From positions 1 to 45,253 of IMG/VR virus record IMGVR_UViG_3300042904_000265: DNA of 45,253 bases. One strand, 5' to 3'. The position numbers and the translations under genes are program-made. The DNA is from a virus. Below, in pieces: positions 3,870-17,486 of the stretch (position 1 is the first letter of the stretch; each line of letters starts with the position of its first letter). The notes below the pieces were generated by a model, which saw nothing but the letters and a program-made list of their open reading frames with translations, was not told the origin of the DNA and searched no databases.

Positions 3870-4223
3870 ATGCCCAAAATCAGCATGCCCAGCACCTATT
3901 TCAAAGCCGAAACCCTCAAGAATGACGGTGAGCAAGTCCTGACCATTAAGTCATGCGACTTTGAAAATGTCGCGCCCGATGACAAGCCGGAAGAACACAA
4001 ATGGGTTCTGAAGTTTGAGGAGTCCATGTCCGGTGTGGTCCTGAACACGTCCAGGCTTGACCAGCTGGTGGAGCTGTTCGGCACCAACGAATCAGAGAAA
4101 TGGCACGGCCAGAAGGTGACATTGTACTGCGATAAAAACGTCATGTTCGGCGGCAAGAAGGTTGGAGGCGTAGCGTTCAAGGCTGCCCCTGGCCTGTTCA
4201 CGAAGCCGGTTAGCGAGCTGTAA
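3870..4223 (+). CDS. Conserved-type phage protein next to the nuclease, possibly nucleic-acid binding
   Basis: A 117-residue protein (MPKISMPSTYFKAETL...) with AAGGAG upstream. It is beta-rich, with alternating hydrophobic strands (QVLTIKSCDF, KVTLYCDKNV, VGGVAFKAA). Such proteins commonly follow RecB-like nucleases in phage genomes and could adopt an OB-like fold. That is inference from gene order and strand pattern; no diagnostic motif is seen. Confidence 0.75.
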   Translation: MPKISMPSTYFKAETLKNDGEQVLTIKSCDFENVAPDDKPEEHKWVLKFEESMSGVVLNTSRLDQLVELFGTNESEKWHGQKVTLYCDKNVMFGGKKVGGVAFKAAPGLFTKPVSEL

Positions 4224-6425: not shown

Positions 6426-6748
6426 GTCCGACACAACGAGCGCTCAAGCATCTCAGGAGCCTGGGTTATCAGGCGCAGGTCGTGGAGAAATGGAACGCCT
6501 TTGCCAAGATCCGCGTGGACCTATTCGGCTGCATAGATATCGTGGCCGTGCGTGCTGGCGTGCCGGTCCTGGGCGTGCAATGTACGAGTCATTCCAACCT
6601 CTCAGCCAGGGTGAGTAAATCGCTGGTCCTGGGGCAAGCCTGGCTGTCTACGGGGCATACGCAGTTAGAGTGCTGGGCGTTTCGCAAGCTGAAGGGACAC
6701 AAGGAACTGCAACTGGATAGGCGAGTGATTGAATTATTAGAGCCGTAA
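6422..6748 (+). CDS. VRR-NUC/Holliday-resolvase-like nuclease-fold protein
   Basis: A 108-residue protein starting MSPTQRALKHLRSLGY. It has the small PD-(D/E)XK core: VDLFGCIDIVAV, then a strand VPVLGVQCTS. In active enzymes the second strand carries ExK; here it reads QCTS, a variant seen in many phage members of this fold. It may recognise branched DNA or be catalytically altered. Ends just before an AGGAGG site for the next gene. Confidence 0.65.
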   Translation: MSPTQRALKHLRSLGYQAQVVEKWNAFAKIRVDLFGCIDIVAVRAGVPVLGVQCTSHSNLSARVSKSLVLGQAWLSTGHTQLECWAFRKLKGHKELQLDRRVIELLEP

Positions 6749-6757
6749 GGAGGAGTG

Positions 6758-6907
6758 ATGAGCCAGCTAACGATAACGCGTGTGGAAAACGGGTACATCC
6801 TTGAATATTGGATGGGGACAGAGCGGGTCAATGCGGTCTACATCGATGATGAGCTGCTGTTAGAGCGCTTAGCTCAGATCATACCAGCCATGACCGTGCG
6901 GGCATAA
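6758..6907 (+). CDS. Hypothetical protein, 49 aa
   Basis: MSQLTITRVENGYILEYW..., preceded by a perfect AGGAGG-type site. Two beta strands followed by a helix (DELLLERLAQIIPAM). Its TAA overlaps an ATG of the next gene. Not recognised; kept because of the strong ribosome site and tight packing. Confidence 0.6.
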   Translation: MSQLTITRVENGYILEYWMGTERVNAVYIDDELLLERLAQIIPAMTVRA

Positions 6908-6933
6908 TGCAGAACAAAAGGAGCATGAACCTG

Positions 6934-8349
6934 ATGAGAGTTTTACTGATATTGGCAGGGATCCTATTGGCAAGTGCCATGCCGGCACAGGCCCAGAGTG
7001 GGCCGTGTCCTGATGGCGCTCCGTTGGCGTTTGAGGGGGCGGAAGGGGCAGGCCGCTGTAGCCAAGGTGGGCGAGGCGGGCCGGTCATCGACGTGACCAA
7101 TCTGAACAATGCAGGACCAGGGAGCTTGCGCGAGTGTTTGGAAGTGAAGAGCGGGCCGCGTATCTGTCGGCCTGTCGTCGCTGGGTGGGTGAGTTTGGGG
7201 GGCGAAGACATCACGATCCGTCATCCCTATGTCACCCTGGACGGATCAGCGGCCCAGATAGGCGTTCGTGAAGCCGGGATTATGGTCAGGGCAGATCACA
7301 CCATCATCCGGCACATCCGTGTCAGGCCTGGACTCTATCAGCTCGAAACCAGACAGCCTGCACAGAACGCGAACGGTATTTTCTACATGAGTTCGGAAAC
7401 GGGCGGGGCTACGCATGACCATTACCTGGATCATGCCTCGATCAGTTGGGGCTCAGATGATTTGCTGGGGGTGATCTTCGGGGCCACGAACGTCACGATT
7501 GATCATTCGATCATTGCTGAGGGCCTAGAGTGTCCGCAGTGCGGCGGCAAGGGCCTAGGCATGGGCGGGAACGGCATGAAGGTGTCCGTCATTCGTTCAC
7601 TGTTCGCCAATACCTGGATCCGTTGGCCAGAGATCACGGCCGGTGATGCCGATTTCGTGAACACGGTGGCCTACAATGACAACGGCATTCCGGCCCAGAT
7701 CAATCCCATCTATGGCCCGTTGCACATCAACTTCGTAGGTACCACGTTTAAGTGGGGGCCGAATATCTACAACCAGAATTATCAGCCGATCCGGGCAGAG
7801 GGTGGCATTACCTACTCGAATCAGTCGGAGGTCTATGTTCAGGATAACGTGGGTCATTGGTGGGATGCTGACTTCCAGCCACAGGTGGGCCTGGCTGTCC
7901 CTGATCGGCGCATCCTCTGGCAGAACAATGGGGGCTTAATCGTGCGTACGTCACGCTACAGCGTGGGCTTGCCACAGGTGCCCACCATGCCATCGGCTCA
8001 GGCGTATGACTACGTGCTGGATCATGCCGGGGCCATGCCCAGGGATGCGACCGATACGCGCATCGTCAAGGAAGTACGCACGAATACAGGGAGCTGGAAG
8101 TATAGCGTGGCGGATGCGGGTGGCTGGCCTAGCTTAGGTGGAGGTAGTACCCCGCCACCCACTGCGCCGTCCCCGCCCACACCGATGCCCCCGCCCCCGG
8201 TGGAACCGGATCGGTTCAGCAAGATCACGAATAAGGGCAATGTGCTGACGTTTGAGTATGTCGTGGCTGAGTGTCCTGGTGGGGTCGGGAAAACAACAGG
8301 AAAGAAAATCAAAGGGAAGCGCACGATCACGCTCACGTGCAAGCCATGA
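6934..8349 (+). CDS. Secreted pectate-lyase-like (PL1-type) parallel beta-helix enzyme
   Basis: A 471-residue secreted protein. The start at 6934 has AAGGAG 10 bases upstream and puts a clean signal peptide (MRVLLILAGILLASAM, cleavage after AQA) at the N-terminus; ATGs at 6925 and 6907 are alternatives. The mature part has PL1 hallmarks: GGRGGPVIDVTNLNNAGPG at about 45-63, YLDHASISWGSDD (164-176) matching the family's IDH-S-SWG-DE block, and RWPEI (230-234) where the catalytic Arg of RxP is expected. A Pro-rich linker and a small C-terminal beta domain follow. It lies in the early region, not with tail genes, so it is probably exported by the host as an accessory (moron) enzyme acting on pectin or a similar polysaccharide. 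Substrate is unproven. Confidence 0.85.
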   Translation: MRVLLILAGILLASAMPAQAQSGPCPDGAPLAFEGAEGAGRCSQGGRGGPVIDVTNLNNAGPGSLRECLEVKSGPRICRPVVAGWVSLGGEDITIRHPYVTLDGSAAQIGVREAGIMVRADHTIIRHIRVRPGLYQLETRQPAQNANGIFYMSSETGGATHDHYLDHASISWGSDDLLGVIFGATNVTIDHSIIAEGLECPQCGGKGLGMGGNGMKVSVIRSLFANTWIRWPEITAGDADFVNTVAYNDNGIPAQINPIYGPLHINFVGTTFKWGPNIYNQNYQPIRAEGGITYSNQSEVYVQDNVGHWWDADFQPQVGLAVPDRRILWQNNGGLIVRTSRYSVGLPQVPTMPSAQAYDYVLDHAGAMPRDATDTRIVKEVRTNTGSWKYSVADAGGWPSLGGGSTPPPTAPSPPTPMPPPPVEPDRFSKITNKGNVLTFEYVVAECPGGVGKTTGKKIKGKRTITLTCKP

Positions 8350-11711: not shown

Positions 11712-11872
11712 TTGCCTAATCAATCATATCAATGGCTTACGCATAGCATGCTCATGATTCACCAGTCAGATGGCCTGGATCGGCCCCACCGGGGGTGGTT
11801 TGACCCTTGCTTTTGCGTGGCTGCAGTTGTAAGGCCCGAAAAATATCCGGCACATGCCCTCACGGCAATAAG

Positions 11873-11881
11873 TTATCCACA
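11873..11881 (+). other. Perfect DnaA-box consensus TTATCCACA
   Basis: A single exact match to the 9-base DnaA box lies just before the Shine-Dalgarno at 11881-11885. Only one was noticed, so it may be chance. Confidence 0.25.
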
Positions 11882-11890
11882 GGAGTGCCC

Positions 11891-12310
11891 ATGAACGACC
11901 GCGATTCTGCCCATGACGATGTCTTCAAGCGCATGGCCGACTTAACTGACCGTGCCGGTATCGACACGGACCAGGCCGGCAAGATCAATGAAGGGGCCTT
12001 GGACTGGCTCCAGTCCGTGGTGGACCAGGCCAAGGGCATGAAGCTGGACGCGAAAAAGAAGGTGGAGTGTCCAGAGTGCCGGAAGCAGTTTTTGATTGAG
12101 ATATTCAACCTGGAGCAGGCCACGAAAGCGGCGGCGAATATCGCCAAGCTCCTAGACCAGAATGCCCGCCTCACCCAGTTCATCCAGGGCAAGGAAGATT
12201 CCAGGCCAGGGGGCCGGGGTGGCGACAATACGATCCTGCAATGTCTGAAGCCGGACCAGCTCGCCATTTTGCAAACCTGGCTCGTGGAAAATCAGGGGGT
12301 AGGGCAGTGA
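11891..12310 (+). CDS. Putative small-terminase-region protein with zinc finger
   Basis: A 139-residue protein starting MNDRDSAHDDVFKRM, with AGGAG 6 bases before the ATG. CPECRKQF at about 59-66 is a half zinc knuckle. The C-terminus (CLKPDQLAILQTWL) is a helix reminiscent of oligomerisation ends. It precedes terL by five small genes and could be the small terminase, but similarity is weak. The frame is open upstream to 11807 and encodes a Cys-rich stretch (CSCKARKISGTCPHG), so a longer form is possible. Confidence 0.6.
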   Translation: MNDRDSAHDDVFKRMADLTDRAGIDTDQAGKINEGALDWLQSVVDQAKGMKLDAKKKVECPECRKQFLIEIFNLEQATKAAANIAKLLDQNARLTQFIQGKEDSRPGGRGGDNTILQCLKPDQLAILQTWLVENQGVGQ

Positions 12311-12788: not shown

Positions 12789-13162
12789 AACCTTTTATTC
12801 CTGGTGTGATTGGTGCCATGTGCTTGGTTGTCTCTGCCTGCGCTCCGTCCACGATCCTGATTCCTGACGGAAACGGGTTTATTGAGCTGACGCAAACGCG
12901 CCATATTTGGGAGTCCAATGCCGTGTCCGTGGGGCACTGTGAAAGCCCTGAGTTCAGCAAATGTCCCAAGGGTACACCTAAGCAAGTGTACGTCATGACC
13001 GGCCCCGGTCCTGGCATGGCCGGCGCGGGCATCCAAGCGGCTGGCATGTTAGGGGGAGCAGCCATTGTGCGTGATGGCCTGATCAAGGGCAAGCCCAAGG
13101 TGAATAACAGCAATAGCAACACCACGAACGAGCATTTTTCAACCAAGTACGTGGGCAAATGA
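12785..13162 (+). CDS. Putative lipoprotein with glycine-zipper segment, 125 aa
   Basis: A type II signal sequence (MKPFIPGVIGAMCLVVSAC) with lipobox VSAC and acylated Cys at 19. A Gly/Ala-rich segment (GPGPGMAGAGIQAAGMLGG, about 77-95) could insert in membrane. The C-terminus is Asn/Ser-rich. It is unusual among packaging genes. Possible roles are superinfection exclusion or envelope modification by a prophage; none is proven. Confidence 0.65.
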   Translation: MKPFIPGVIGAMCLVVSACAPSTILIPDGNGFIELTQTRHIWESNAVSVGHCESPEFSKCPKGTPKQVYVMTGPGPGMAGAGIQAAGMLGGAAIVRDGLIKGKPKVNNSNSNTTNEHFSTKYVGK

Positions 13163-13335
13163 ACACGCTACGCGCCTGGCAGCAACGGCAGGATGTTCAG
13201 GGCCAGTTTTTGCCGGTCTATCATCTGTTGCAGTGCCGGGAATGCGGGTATTGTCAGAAGGCCTGTTCCGAGAGTCGATTGCGACCGATTACACCCAGAC
13301 CCCTGGAGGGCAAACCTAACTTGACACTTGGCTAA
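13159..13335 (+). CDS. Small zinc-finger-like protein, 58 aa
   Basis: MNTLRAWQQRQDVQGQ... with CRECGYCQKAC (C26, C29, C32, C36). It overlaps the lipoprotein stop by ATGA and the terminase start by 8 bases. Function unknown. Confidence 0.5.
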   Translation: MNTLRAWQQRQDVQGQFLPVYHLLQCRECGYCQKACSESRLRPITPRPLEGKPNLTLG

Positions 13336-14056
13336 AAAGTTCAAAACCGCCATAGACCAGCTCGACTTCGAGCGGTGTCGTCGTGACCCGCAATACTTCA
13401 TTTTTGAGCAAGTGAGGACGAAGGATGAGCACGATGCGGCGGATCCCGTCAAGCGCTTCCCCGATCACCTGTACTTGCGTTCCCTCCTCGATTGTCTCCT
13501 GGTGGCAGGACGACTACTCCCTCCCAGAGATGCCCGATACGCCCTTGAGGCAGGGCATTCGGAAACCTGGCTTACTGCGCTCCACACGTCCGGCATCCTC
13601 ATGACCGAAAAGAGCCGGCAAGTCATGGCGACATGGCTGTGCTGTGCCTACCTCCTCTGGCGGGCCAAATTCCGTGAACACCAGCTAATCCTCGTCCAAT
13701 CAAAAAAAGAAGAAGACGCAGCGAACCTGGTGTTCAACGGGGAGGCCTGGGTCGCCCGAATGAGCTTCATGGAAGTGAATCTGCCCCAACATTTGCGCAG
13801 CATCGCACCGAAAGCAGGGATGAGCTATGCCCAACTCAGAACCGACTCAGGATCCAGAATCTGGGGATGCCCAGAGGGTGGTGACATTATTCGATCCAAC
13901 ACAGCTTCTGTCATTTTTAGCGACGAGGCCTGTTTCCAGCCAGAATTTGGAAACGCCTTTACCGCAGCCCTGCCCAGCATCAAGGGCGGAGGATCCCTTG
14001 TCGCCATCAGCTCTGCAGAGCCAGGGGCTTTTGCTGAGATAGTGGAGGCGGCATGA
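13328..14056 (+). CDS. terL: Terminase large subunit, N-terminal (ATPase) half of a split gene
   Basis: 242 residues from a TTG at 13328 (MAKKFKTAIDQLDFE). This is the DNA-packaging ATPase domain. It has a deviant Walker A region TEKSRQVMATW (93-103) with the KSRQ seen in several terminases but no GKS/T, and Walker B VIFSDEA (195-201; D199, E200). The coupling motif LVAISSAEPG (224-233) follows. The frame stops at 14056, where terminases normally continue into the nuclease domain. An HNH gene starts at the stop (ATGA). The nuclease half resumes at 14525 in the same reading frame. The Shine-Dalgarno for the TTG is weak (GGAGGG 17 bases upstream). Confidence 0.85.
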   Translation: MAKKFKTAIDQLDFERCRRDPQYFIFEQVRTKDEHDAADPVKRFPDHLYLRSLLDCLLVAGRLLPPRDARYALEAGHSETWLTALHTSGILMTEKSRQVMATWLCCAYLLWRAKFREHQLILVQSKKEEDAANLVFNGEAWVARMSFMEVNLPQHLRSIAPKAGMSYAQLRTDSGSRIWGCPEGGDIIRSNTASVIFSDEACFQPEFGNAFTAALPSIKGGGSLVAISSAEPGAFAEIVEAA

Positions 14057-14538
14057 ATTTGCAGATCGATGAAGCGAGAAAGCGAGTTTCTGACCGAGTC
14101 ATCGTCCTTGATAACGGATGCTGGCAGTGGGTCGGGTGCGGCAAGGACAACGGTTATGGTGTGCACTATGGGGTGATTGGCTTCCGCGATGGTGGCAAGA
14201 GGCGGCAGTACTACGCCCATAGGTTTAGTTACATCGCGCACAAGGGGAATATTCCCGATGGATACGAAATTGATCATTTGTGCCGTAGGCCCATGTGCGT
14301 GAATCCAGAGCACCTAGAAGCAGTAACGCGCAGAGAAAATCTAATGCGTGGGAACACGGTCTGCGCCATCAACGCGGCGAAAACTCAGTGTCCTGCCGGA
14401 CATGAATACTCACCGGATAATACGCGCACGAAGGATAACGTCAGGAAGTGCAGGGCCTGCGACCGCGTGCGAAGGCGGCGATACGTGGCGGCCAATTACG
14501 AGGCCGTCAAGGAGAAGAAGAGACTTGCAAGGCGTTAA
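14053..14538 (+). CDS. HNH homing endonuclease inserted in the terminase gene
   Basis: 161 residues. It has an HNH core with EIDHLC (72-77), N84 and H87 in CVNPEHLEAVTRREN, preceded by the typical GCWQW...GYG and YYAHRFSYIAHKG blocks. A C-terminal Cys/His module (CPAGHEYS...CRAC) and a basic tail follow. It begins at the stop of the ATPase half (ATGA) and its 3' end overlaps the start of the nuclease half, carrying that half's ribosome site. It is a free-standing homing nuclease: no intron-like flanks and no intein motifs. It is paralogous to the HNH gene at 23657. Confidence 0.9.
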   Translation: MNLQIDEARKRVSDRVIVLDNGCWQWVGCGKDNGYGVHYGVIGFRDGGKRRQYYAHRFSYIAHKGNIPDGYEIDHLCRRPMCVNPEHLEAVTRRENLMRGNTVCAINAAKTQCPAGHEYSPDNTRTKDNVRKCRACDRVRRRRYVAANYEAVKEKKRLARR

Positions 14539-15514
14539 CGAGCGCATAACGAAATCTGGCATTCCAGTGCTCAGGCTGCATTACTCAGCTTGCCCAGATA
14601 AACGCCCAGGAACCCCAGAGGGCGACCAGTGGCTAGAGCAGGCCACACAGGGCTATCCCGGTGGCGTGAAGTCCCCGCGCTGGATGAAGGAAATGGAAAT
14701 AGACTTTGGCGCACTGGGCGGAACCAAGCTCATCCCAGGCTGGCCAGAGCTAAAGGAAAATGGCCGTATCGTCATTCCCCCGATCAACCCCATAGGATTC
14801 AAATTGTATGGAAGCTATGACCATGGCTGGCGTCATCGTGCTGCTTATCATGTGCACGGCATTAATAGTGATGGTAGGAAATTTACGCTCTGGGAATTCT
14901 GGGCGGCCCATGTCCCCTATCAATACATCGCAGAAATTATCAAGGGAAACACAACCCGCGTACCAGCACAAGGTTGTGCGTGTCACCCGGAAGTACGCAC
15001 CTTCCCTGGCAACCCCTATGCAGGCCAAGAAACCTACAAAATAGCCGACCGTGCCTTGTGGGCGGATGACCAGGCAGCCGGCGATGGCACGATGAAAAGC
15101 ATGGCCAAGCTCTTTGCGCGAGAGGGCGTGCATTTTATTGCGGCAGAAGCAGGCGGTGACACGACCTTTGCCGAATGGCTCATGGGCTATTACTGGCGGG
15201 ATCCGCTGAACCCCCTGTATTGCATCACCACGTCATGCCCTGGGCTGATTTGGGAAATTGGCCAGCAACGGCACAAGGATGTTTCCGACAAGGTCGCCCT
15301 GAACAAGCACAAGCCAGAGGAGTTGGTGGATAAGGACAATGACGCCTGGGACTCGTGCAAGTACTGGCATCTCCGCTTTCCGCCACGCCCTATGGCCGCA
15401 GAGATTGCGCAGAAACCGAACAGCTTCCACTGGTGGCGGGAACAATCCAAACGGGCCGCGAATGGCGAGGCCACGCAAACATTTAGCATGCAGCGGGAGA
15501 TGATGGGTGGCTAA
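14525..15514 (+). CDS. terL: Terminase large subunit, C-terminal (nuclease) half of a split gene
   Basis: 329 residues from a TTG at 14525 with AAGGAG 10 bases upstream, embedded in the HNH gene end. It begins QGVNERITKSGIPVLRLHYSA, the usual continuation after the ATPase motif III. RNase-H-like nuclease residues are visible: D99 in YGSYDHG, E208 in FIAAEAGGD, and D273/D276 in NDAWDSCKYWH. It provides the headful or site-specific cut during packaging. The ATPase half ends at 14056, so the two polypeptides must associate. Its end overlaps the portal start by 8 bases. Confidence 0.85.
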   Translation: MQGVNERITKSGIPVLRLHYSACPDKRPGTPEGDQWLEQATQGYPGGVKSPRWMKEMEIDFGALGGTKLIPGWPELKENGRIVIPPINPIGFKLYGSYDHGWRHRAAYHVHGINSDGRKFTLWEFWAAHVPYQYIAEIIKGNTTRVPAQGCACHPEVRTFPGNPYAGQETYKIADRALWADDQAAGDGTMKSMAKLFAREGVHFIAAEAGGDTTFAEWLMGYYWRDPLNPLYCITTSCPGLIWEIGQQRHKDVSDKVALNKHKPEELVDKDNDAWDSCKYWHLRFPPRPMAAEIAQKPNSFHWWREQSKRAANGEATQTFSMQREMMGG

Positions 15515-17486
15515 AAAGAAAAAGAGTGCCCTGGAAGAGTCCGGCGAACGCACGGACGCGCAGAAGGACCTTGAGCGTTGGCAGCATCGCGCCACGATTG
15601 CCAAGAAGATACGCGAAGATTGGGAGCGCGACCAGAATGTGCTGGAGGCTGAGAAGTATTTCTACGGTGAGCAGGGCACGTACCTGAGCAAGGGCAACAA
15701 TCGAAGCTTTAACCACTTCCGCGCCACTGTCCGCACCCAAAAGCCGAACCTGTTTTATAACAATCCGAAGTTCTTTGTGCGTCCGATTCAGGGCATGGAG
15801 GCCAGCGCGGTGGCGCAAAAGGCCGCACAAGGCGAAGCCATCCTGGAGCGCATAGGGTCGCAAGACGACAATTTTAAGAACGCAGCGTCACTGGCCCTGC
15901 TCCAGGCCTTTTTCCGCGTGGGTGTCATCAAGACCTGTTACGACCCCACGCTAGAGCCAAACCCGCGCAAGGGTGAGCCGGTCTTTATCATGCAGGACGG
16001 GATGCTGACCAAGGATGAGCTGGGCAATCCCATCCCCATGAAAAACCCGCTTACCGGCCAGCCCACCGTCGAACCTGACTTTGTCATGCAGGACGAGGCC
16101 TACCGCTACGAATACGTAGACGCCAGGACCATGCTCTTTCCAGATGCCGGCCCAGACATGGCGAAATGGCCATGGATCGGGGAAGAAGTGACGGTATCCC
16201 TGGAAGATGCCAAAGCAGACGAGCGTTTTCCTCAGTCTAGGCGTGACATGTTCAGATCCAACTCCACGGCCAGGACCACGGACAGCGGGCGCAAGCGACG
16301 ATCAGAGCCGGAAGGCGATGAACTGTTTAAGTATATCGAAATCTACGACCTTCGCAAAAAAGAACACATCATTTATGCGGACGGCCAGGACTTTGACGAT
16401 TTCCTGATTAAGGAACCGCTGCCACGAGGCATTGAAGATCATCCGTACTCGATTCTGAACCTGGGCGACCCCATTCTCTCGCCTGATCCCTCACCATGGC
16501 CCTGCCCGAAAACGAAAAGCTGGGTGCCGCTCCAGGATTCGTACAACCTCCTGCGCAAGATGATTGACGAAGGGGCGAAACGCTCGGCCCGCAAGATCAT
16601 GTACACGGACGGCACCTTTGCCGGTTCAGAGGAAATGGCAAAGTTTGGCAGCTCCGATGACATGACCGGCGTCAAGATCAACGATACCAAGCAACCGCCT
16701 GTGCCGTGGATGGATCCGCCCCTTGCCCCTGACCTGTACAAGGCCGCGCAGCTGATCATGATGGATTGGCGTATCGTCACTGGCACCTCTGGCGCTCGTG
16801 CCGGATCAGAAGAGGGGGCGAGTGCAACGGAAAGCAGCTTTGTGGAGCGTGCGGCCAATTTACGCGACAAGGACGAGCAAGGCTCTGTCAACGACTGGCT
16901 CTCAACCGCTGGCCAGAAGATGTTTCAGCTGGTGAAGGACACGCTGACGCTCGAAATGTGGATCAAGCTCAGGGATTTCAAAGCGCCTGAGATTATTCCA
17001 GTGCTGGCGCAGCTCTTGGGCGTGGATCCGGCGCAACTCGGCGTCATGGTCGAAATGATGCCTGAAATCAAGAAGCAACTGGAGGAACAGTACGGCGCGG
17101 AGCGCTGGGACCGTGTGACGCGAGAGGATTTGACCTTTGAGGCGGATGTGACCTGCGTCCCTGGGTCATCCAGGCCGGTGAACTTAGAGGTCGAGAAGGC
17201 CTCTGCCTTGGAATTCATGACCACGTTGGGGGCGGCCCCGCAACTGGCGCTATCACCGGACCTCTTGAACTGGCTTGGTGAAAAGTTCGATCCACCCATC
17301 CCCAAGAACGTGATCATGAGCCTGGTGCAGCTCTCGCAGGCCATGATGCAAGCGACACAGACCCAGGCCGGCCACGGCCCAGGCAGCGACAAGGGCGGGG
17401 ACAATCCAGGGGCGGGCACTGGCAAGACGGCAGGCAATCCAAAACCGGGGCCGCAACTGCGCGGCGTCACGGCATCGTTAGGATAA
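15507..17486 (+). CDS. Portal protein
   Basis: A 659-residue protein from a GTG (MAKKKKSALEESGERT). It follows the terminase, as portals do, and has a portal-like layout: N-terminal helices with FNHFRATVRTQKPNLFY, a beta-rich wing with DARTMLFPDAG, a stem/helix region (DSYNLLRKMIDEGAKRS) and ATESSFVERAANLRDKDEQ near 440-465. A flexible Gly-rich C-terminus follows. Length and composition fit podovirus-type portals. It forms the dodecameric vertex through which DNA is packaged and ejected. Confidence 0.85.
   Translation: MAKKKKSALEESGERTDAQKDLERWQHRATIAKKIREDWERDQNVLEAEKYFYGEQGTYLSKGNNRSFNHFRATVRTQKPNLFYNNPKFFVRPIQGMEASAVAQKAAQGEAILERIGSQDDNFKNAASLALLQAFFRVGVIKTCYDPTLEPNPRKGEPVFIMQDGMLTKDELGNPIPMKNPLTGQPTVEPDFVMQDEAYRYEYVDARTMLFPDAGPDMAKWPWIGEEVTVSLEDAKADERFPQSRRDMFRSNSTARTTDSGRKRRSEPEGDELFKYIEIYDLRKKEHIIYADGQDFDDFLIKEPLPRGIEDHPYSILNLGDPILSPDPSPWPCPKTKSWVPLQDSYNLLRKMIDEGAKRSARKIMYTDGTFAGSEEMAKFGSSDDMTGVKINDTKQPPVPWMDPPLAPDLYKAAQLIMMDWRIVTGTSGARAGSEEGASATESSFVERAANLRDKDEQGSVNDWLSTAGQKMFQLVKDTLTLEMWIKLRDFKAPEIIPVLAQLLGVDPAQLGVMVEMMPEIKKQLEEQYGAERWDRVTREDLTFEADVTCVPGSSRPVNLEVEKASALEFMTTLGAAPQLALSPDLLNWLGEKFDPPIPKNVIMSLVQLSQAMMQATQTQAGHGPGSDKGGDNPGAGTGKTAGNPKPGPQLRGVTASLG

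Follow-up and report, generated by a model that had tools for sequence, protein, structure and literature searches.

A large terminase encoded by separate ATPase and nuclease genes across a phage lineage, with a putative homing-type HNH gene at the boundary

The phage represented by IMG/VR record IMGVR_UViG_3300042904_000265, analysed here over its full 45,253 nucleotides (the window), encodes the ATPase and the nuclease of its large terminase (TerL) in two genes. This is very probably a stable two-chain large terminase, whose split is older than the homing-type HNH gene now at the boundary; the chains would assemble as a complex, their genes may be translationally coupled, and the HNH gene is presumably mobile. 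Few tailed-phage proteins are as conserved as TerL, which serves as a standard phylogenetic marker and is described as a single ATPase-nuclease chain. What appears to be new, from sequence comparison, is a two-gene TerL in this phage and at least 65 relatives, together with an HNH gene that would have entered a pre-existing gene boundary rather than caused the split. Our search, which covered mainly the open-access literature, found no description of a lineage-wide two-gene TerL.

All the genes concerned lie on the plus strand. The ATPase ORF (13328..14056; 242 aa, TTG start) is followed by the HNH_3 endonuclease gene (14053..14538; 161 aa), whose start shares an ATGA with the ATPase stop, and then by the nuclease gene (14525..15514; 329 aa, TTG start), whose stop is overlapped by the portal protein gene (15507..17486; PHROG portal matches at E 3e-5 and 1e-4). 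A ribosome-site-like GTGGAGG occupies 14042..14048 at the 3' end of the ATPase gene. Inside the HNH gene an AAGGAG (14509..14514) stands 10 bases 5' of the nuclease TTG, and the nuclease frame is open from 14345 onward, ahead of that TTG. The earlier note had given the ATPase, HNH and nuclease ORFs and the AAGGAG, with the ribosome site of the nuclease half inside the HNH gene, and all of this holds on re-examination; its remark that the two halves share a frame is true of the window but coincidental, the frames being mixed (6/13/6) among relatives with an insert.

The first chain has a recognizable ASCE/RecA-like core, with a Walker-A-like KSRQ, a Walker B SDEA and a coupling motif SSA. It matches the PHROG terminase large subunit (E 4e-9) and, by profile, the T4 gp17 ATPase (E 2e-10), and the residues K95 S96 R97 Q98, D199 E200 and S228 A230 are invariant in 18 relatives. 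Its AlphaFold2 model (pLDDT 91) matches T4 gp17 101-301 (Z 22.3) and also aligns to P74-26 4-193 and D6E 9-187. Motif columns, profile and fold agree on a TerL-type ASCE ATPase with Walker A, Walker B and coupling motifs.

The nuclease half alone returned no Pfam, PHROG or convincing PDB sequence match, and its identity is drawn from family context and fold. AlphaFold2, run on 18 relatives, predicts a TerL nuclease fold (pLDDT 79), which matches D6E 232-417 (Z 18.3), the P22 nuclease (Z 17.3), SPP1 (Z 15) and T4 gp17 361-557 (Z 12.9). D99 and D175 are invariant, and many rows, though not all, conserve a third acidic position, giving an RNase-H-like nuclease with acidic catalytic residues as in TerL. 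This domain spans residues 67-288, the fold alignment beginning at residue 64-67 of the chain, which corresponds to D6E 232 and T4 361. Residues 1-66, predicted with lower confidence (block pLDDT 63-90), likely represent the lid and hinge, a call made from their position between the mapped parts. In D6E the lid residues are Y213 and R224 and the linker is 230-241; since Y213, R224 and the linker start all fall in the gap matching these first ~66 residues, the second chain would comprise lid, hinge and nuclease.

On T4 gp17 the break falls at residue ~301, ahead of the lid and hinge. A join between ATPase motif III and the nuclease domain had been proposed in the earlier note; alignment by fold to intact TerLs (T4 gp17, P74-26, D6E) places the break ahead of the nuclease domain, so the proposal is roughly right, but the lid/hinge equivalent also lies downstream of the break. 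On these models the natural break appears to part the engine from the transmission. The lid tyrosine of D6E hydrogen-bonds with the P-loop arginine, and, by analogy, a contact of this type would here run between two chains. An ATPase and nuclease on one polypeptide are absent from the window and from 66 of 79 distinct family members. The separate genes count against an ordinary TerL and not against a pair that would work as TerL. The two-chain large terminase that the earlier note suggested is to this extent supported by two separate, TerL-like ORFs, which would then have to assemble.

Every fetched locus was scanned with the profiles of the two halves, which, by distinct match sequence, lie in separate ORFs in 75 loci and in a single ORF in 15. 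Removal of near-copies and short fragments left 79 distinct members, 66 of them split (22 with adjacent genes, 25 with an insert, defined as a gap of more than 60 bases, and 19 with the nuclease upstream) and 13 fused; because the queries were the split halves themselves, these counts are uninformative on prevalence. The recurrence of the same break in 66 non-redundant members indicates that it is not due to chance. The inserts vary, and include HNH, Sigma70_r4, GIY-YIG and glycosyltransferase 2 genes, 240-341-aa proteins without a Pfam match and many small ORFs. The locus L012, for instance, has a 430-aa tandem GT2 glycosyltransferase gene (6666-7958; E 4e-19) between its ATPase and nuclease genes. 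In a well-supported reversed clade (L036-L038 and L141-L177; 19 distinct loci) the order is nuclease, one or more ORFs, TerS and ATPase. The small terminase subunit TerS lies between the nuclease and ATPase genes in 19/19 of these loci; that of L149 matches Terminase_2 (E 2e-12), and a counterpart was detected in all the others.

The family, as far as it was found, consists of metagenomic contigs and metagenome-assembled genomes (MAGs), two members coming from bacterial or candidate-bacterial MAGs. A DNA-level search of phage records gave no match. At the protein level the phage collection yielded, for the ATPase, only distant TerLs (~20-33% identity among the matches listed) and no named phage of the lineage; for the nuclease it gave a single, distant match, to a Manatee Spring podovirus. 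The split terminase of L114 (JACQGO010000170.1, 5347-7240) is on a contig binned to a Betaproteobacteria groundwater MAG, and is either a provirus or a mis-binned phage.

The HNH ORF matches Pfam HNH_3 over positions 1-45 of 46 (E 9e-15), effectively full length, so that its HNH motif is complete; it also matches zf-His_Me (E 7e-7) and PHROG 826 (E 6e-45), and related HNH genes (<60% identity) occur in 1,211 phage records. At the same site among relatives there is an HNH gene in the window, none in L117/L118 and another gene in L002. This is most likely a homing-type gene, presumably mobile, that exploits an existing boundary. HNH proteins beside terminase genes can, however, act in packaging, and the two roles are compatible (discussed in PMC10448857); it might instead be a working partner of the terminase, comparable to HK97 gp74. 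We consider this improbable: the gene is missing from the sister contigs L002/L003 at the same site, inspection by eye of the insert ORFs listed for the rest of the family recognized no HNH, and the protein falls in the HNH_3 family and matches a His-Me zinc loop.

The earlier note held that the HNH gene had itself split terL, like the mobile HNH gene that splits nrdA in some T4-like phages; mobE in the nrdA of phage Aeh1 is such a case. The gene does lie between the halves, its ATGA overlap with the ATPase stop resembles that of T4, in which the stop codon of nrdA likewise contains the mobE start (PMC2988022), and fused relatives exist. Against this, the nearest relatives, L002/L003 (94% ATPase and 91% nuclease identity), have the same split point and no HNH; their insert is an ORF of 88 aa that matches sigma-70 region 4 (Sigma70_r4, E 9e-7). 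In the more distant L004 (62%) the site is taken up by a small ORF of membrane type together with a GIY-YIG-like protein whose match (E 4e-4) lies just under the Pfam cut-off, and L117, L118, L121, L123, L129 and L133 are split with nothing inserted. At the junctions of L117 and L118, ...GTGGAGGCCGTGTGA... and ...GTGGAGGCCGCGTGA... respectively, the nuclease GTG overlaps the ATPase TGA (GTGA); at the window junction, ...GTGGAGGCGGCATGA..., the ATG now starts the HNH gene. The GTGGAGG that precedes the HNH start in the window precedes the nuclease start in L117/L118. As the nuclease GTG of the latter is at the position of the HNH ATG, the HNH gene would occupy the former start codon and ribosome-site-like sequence of the nuclease. 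The HNH-less L002/L003 and L117/L118 do not have an intact gene, and an HNH-made split would need a clean loss of the HNH back to a GTGA overlap in the ancestry of L002, L117 and L118; one clade, moreover, is nuclease-first. That the HNH gene made the split is accordingly very unlikely.

Two known systems can be compared with the split that we favor, which predates the HNH gene. In Aeh1, too, a homing-type HNH gene separates the two chains of an essential enzyme, but there the mobE insertion made the split (PMC2988022), unlike the older, HNH-independent split of the window's terminase. The second is gene 43A/43B of Aeromonas phage 25, which may already have been split when a seg homing gene entered it and whose two products purify together and are active (PMC2988022). 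That enzyme is a DNA polymerase and not a packaging motor. To our knowledge, the gene 43 split has not been reported as a lineage-wide trait with changing cargo.

Splicing of the halves into one protein has ample precedent, as terL is often targeted by introns and inteins (PMC10448857, PMC12363816, PMC7156551, PMC3322345). Interrupted terL genes, often with a homing endonuclease nearby, are found in ICP1, the Jug phages, IBB_35 and Mic1, and have been inferred for phD2B and K1E; these are joined by splicing, or presumed so, whereas no such signal was found in the window and one related clade is reversed. A group I intron or intein in the window, as in ICP1, the Jug phages or Mic1, is extremely unlikely. 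An Rfam scan of 13000-15800, run without a positive control, found no intron ribozyme core at E<=1, and the insert is nearly all HNH coding sequence, with no space left for one. A stop codon closes the ATPase ORF, and the inserted sequence forms a gene of its own in a different frame. Pfam and PHROG gave no match to intein families in the insert. The relatives without inserts have overlapping genes in different frames.

Overlap of the genes in many relatives might also permit a frameshift, readthrough or bypass to yield some fused protein at a low level. Bypass has a precedent in T4 gene 60. Such a product is likewise exceedingly improbable, given that the ATPase stops across the family are TGA, TAA or TAG, the frames are mixed and the inserts reach 1.5 kb. 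The reversed clade weighs against both possibilities: with the nuclease upstream and TerS between, cis-splicing, frameshifting and readthrough cannot join the halves in these 19 loci.

Strong purifying selection acts on the two halves. Between the window and L002 the dN/dS (Nei-Gojobori) is 0.067 for the ATPase, 0.053 for the nuclease and 0.098 for the portal, values that are approximate because dS is high (0.85-1.5). In 14/14 virus records there is one ATPase match each and no other TerL; the 15th record, a bacterial MAG, has an additional terminase match. The TerL profile phrog_2 matches the two terminase genes of the L186 record with consecutive parts, 273-420 and 432-597. Profile comparison of the ATPase half with the nuclease half gave no match, as expected, and the distances of the two chains correlate (r 0.89) over the split members, as shared ancestry alone would lead one to expect. 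Least credible of all is a decayed, non-functional terminase of a defective phage, for which the two ORFs where one is usual and the lack of an isolate might speak, in the face of dN/dS of 0.05-0.07 on both halves, invariant catalytic residues and the same break throughout a deep tree.

A tree of the concatenated halves requires three split/fused changes, and about 10 changes between insert and no insert. A single group of all fused members is rejected (AU p 1e-37), so more than one split/fused change is needed. Once L124, L125 and L130, which are close relatives, are set aside, placing the other ten fused members on one side is not rejected (p 0.45), and, when eight distant TerLs are used to root the ATPase tree, its ten-fused counterpart scores slightly above the free tree. 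The data are consistent with a single old split followed by one re-fusion; several splits are also possible. The fused TerLs of L124 (1830-3566), L125 (4224-5993) and L130 (3832-5526) are close to the window and nested in the split clade, and are apparently re-fusions with a new linker. The existence of fused members implies that tethering is compatible with this terminase family.

Taken together, we posit that chain A, the ATPase core, and chain B, the lid/hinge with the RNase-H nuclease, have both been stably inherited, and that the ancestral layout near the window was of two overlapping genes (ATGA/GTGA), probably translationally coupled. Various genes would then have repeatedly entered the ATPase/nuclease boundary. 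Among these the HNH gene may have taken over the original start site of the nuclease (GGAGG and the ATG on the ATPase stop), the nuclease now having TTG 14525 as its start codon, served by a ribosome site within the HNH gene. The separate chains would assemble as the packaging motor. Across the family, ribosome-site-like sequence (at least 4 bases) is found at 51% of nuclease starts versus 24% of in-frame control codons, the best candidate start being taken per locus and controls picked likewise in 90-base bins; the window TTG is a weak start and the start codons of some relatives are uncertain.

It is likely, then, that in a whole tailed-phage lineage the engine and the lid-hinge-nuclease are permanently separate, and in one clade non-adjacent, with power crossing a non-covalent engine-lid contact and with the boundary serving as a landing site for mobile or cargo genes. 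T4 gp17 offers the obvious comparison: its 101-301 and 361-557 correspond to the ATPase and nuclease chains, but it is a single polypeptide and the window's break is ~60 residues before the T4 hinge cut. When T4 gp17 is cut at the hinge, its two activities persist but translocation is abolished (PMC3012670, PMC9958956), so the coupling of engine to transmission becomes testable in this lineage. The role of the lid differs between competing packaging models, and a natural engine/lid separation, along with apparently re-fused close relatives, provides material for asking which connection must be covalent. In practical terms, marker-gene pipelines that expect a full-length TerL could miscall or truncate such phages.

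The TerL domains of the Parabacteroides phage PDS1 have been annotated as two genes, and the authors suspected that a problem with the codon table or the assembly was the cause (PMC10773633). In this record (L194; MN929097, 23502-25054), unlike in the window family, the next frame is open across the gap, as with a single frame shift, due to either sequencing error or a programmed event, and the TerL sequence looks dissimilar. We set it aside as a precedent, as a frame shift in an apparently unrelated TerL. A second cargo boundary is seen in L002, with an extra 77-aa ORF (3910-4143), absent from the window, between the nuclease and portal genes. No TerS was recognized among the window ORFs scanned; a candidate is the 167-aa ORF 5' of the ATPase (11807-12310), without a Pfam or PHROG match, which has look-alikes in L002 (1022-1438) and L004 (1872-2390). 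Further upstream, the window encodes a 480-aa protein (6907-8349) that matches pectate lyase/hydrolase in PHROG (E 4e-29) and may be a virion-associated depolymerase.
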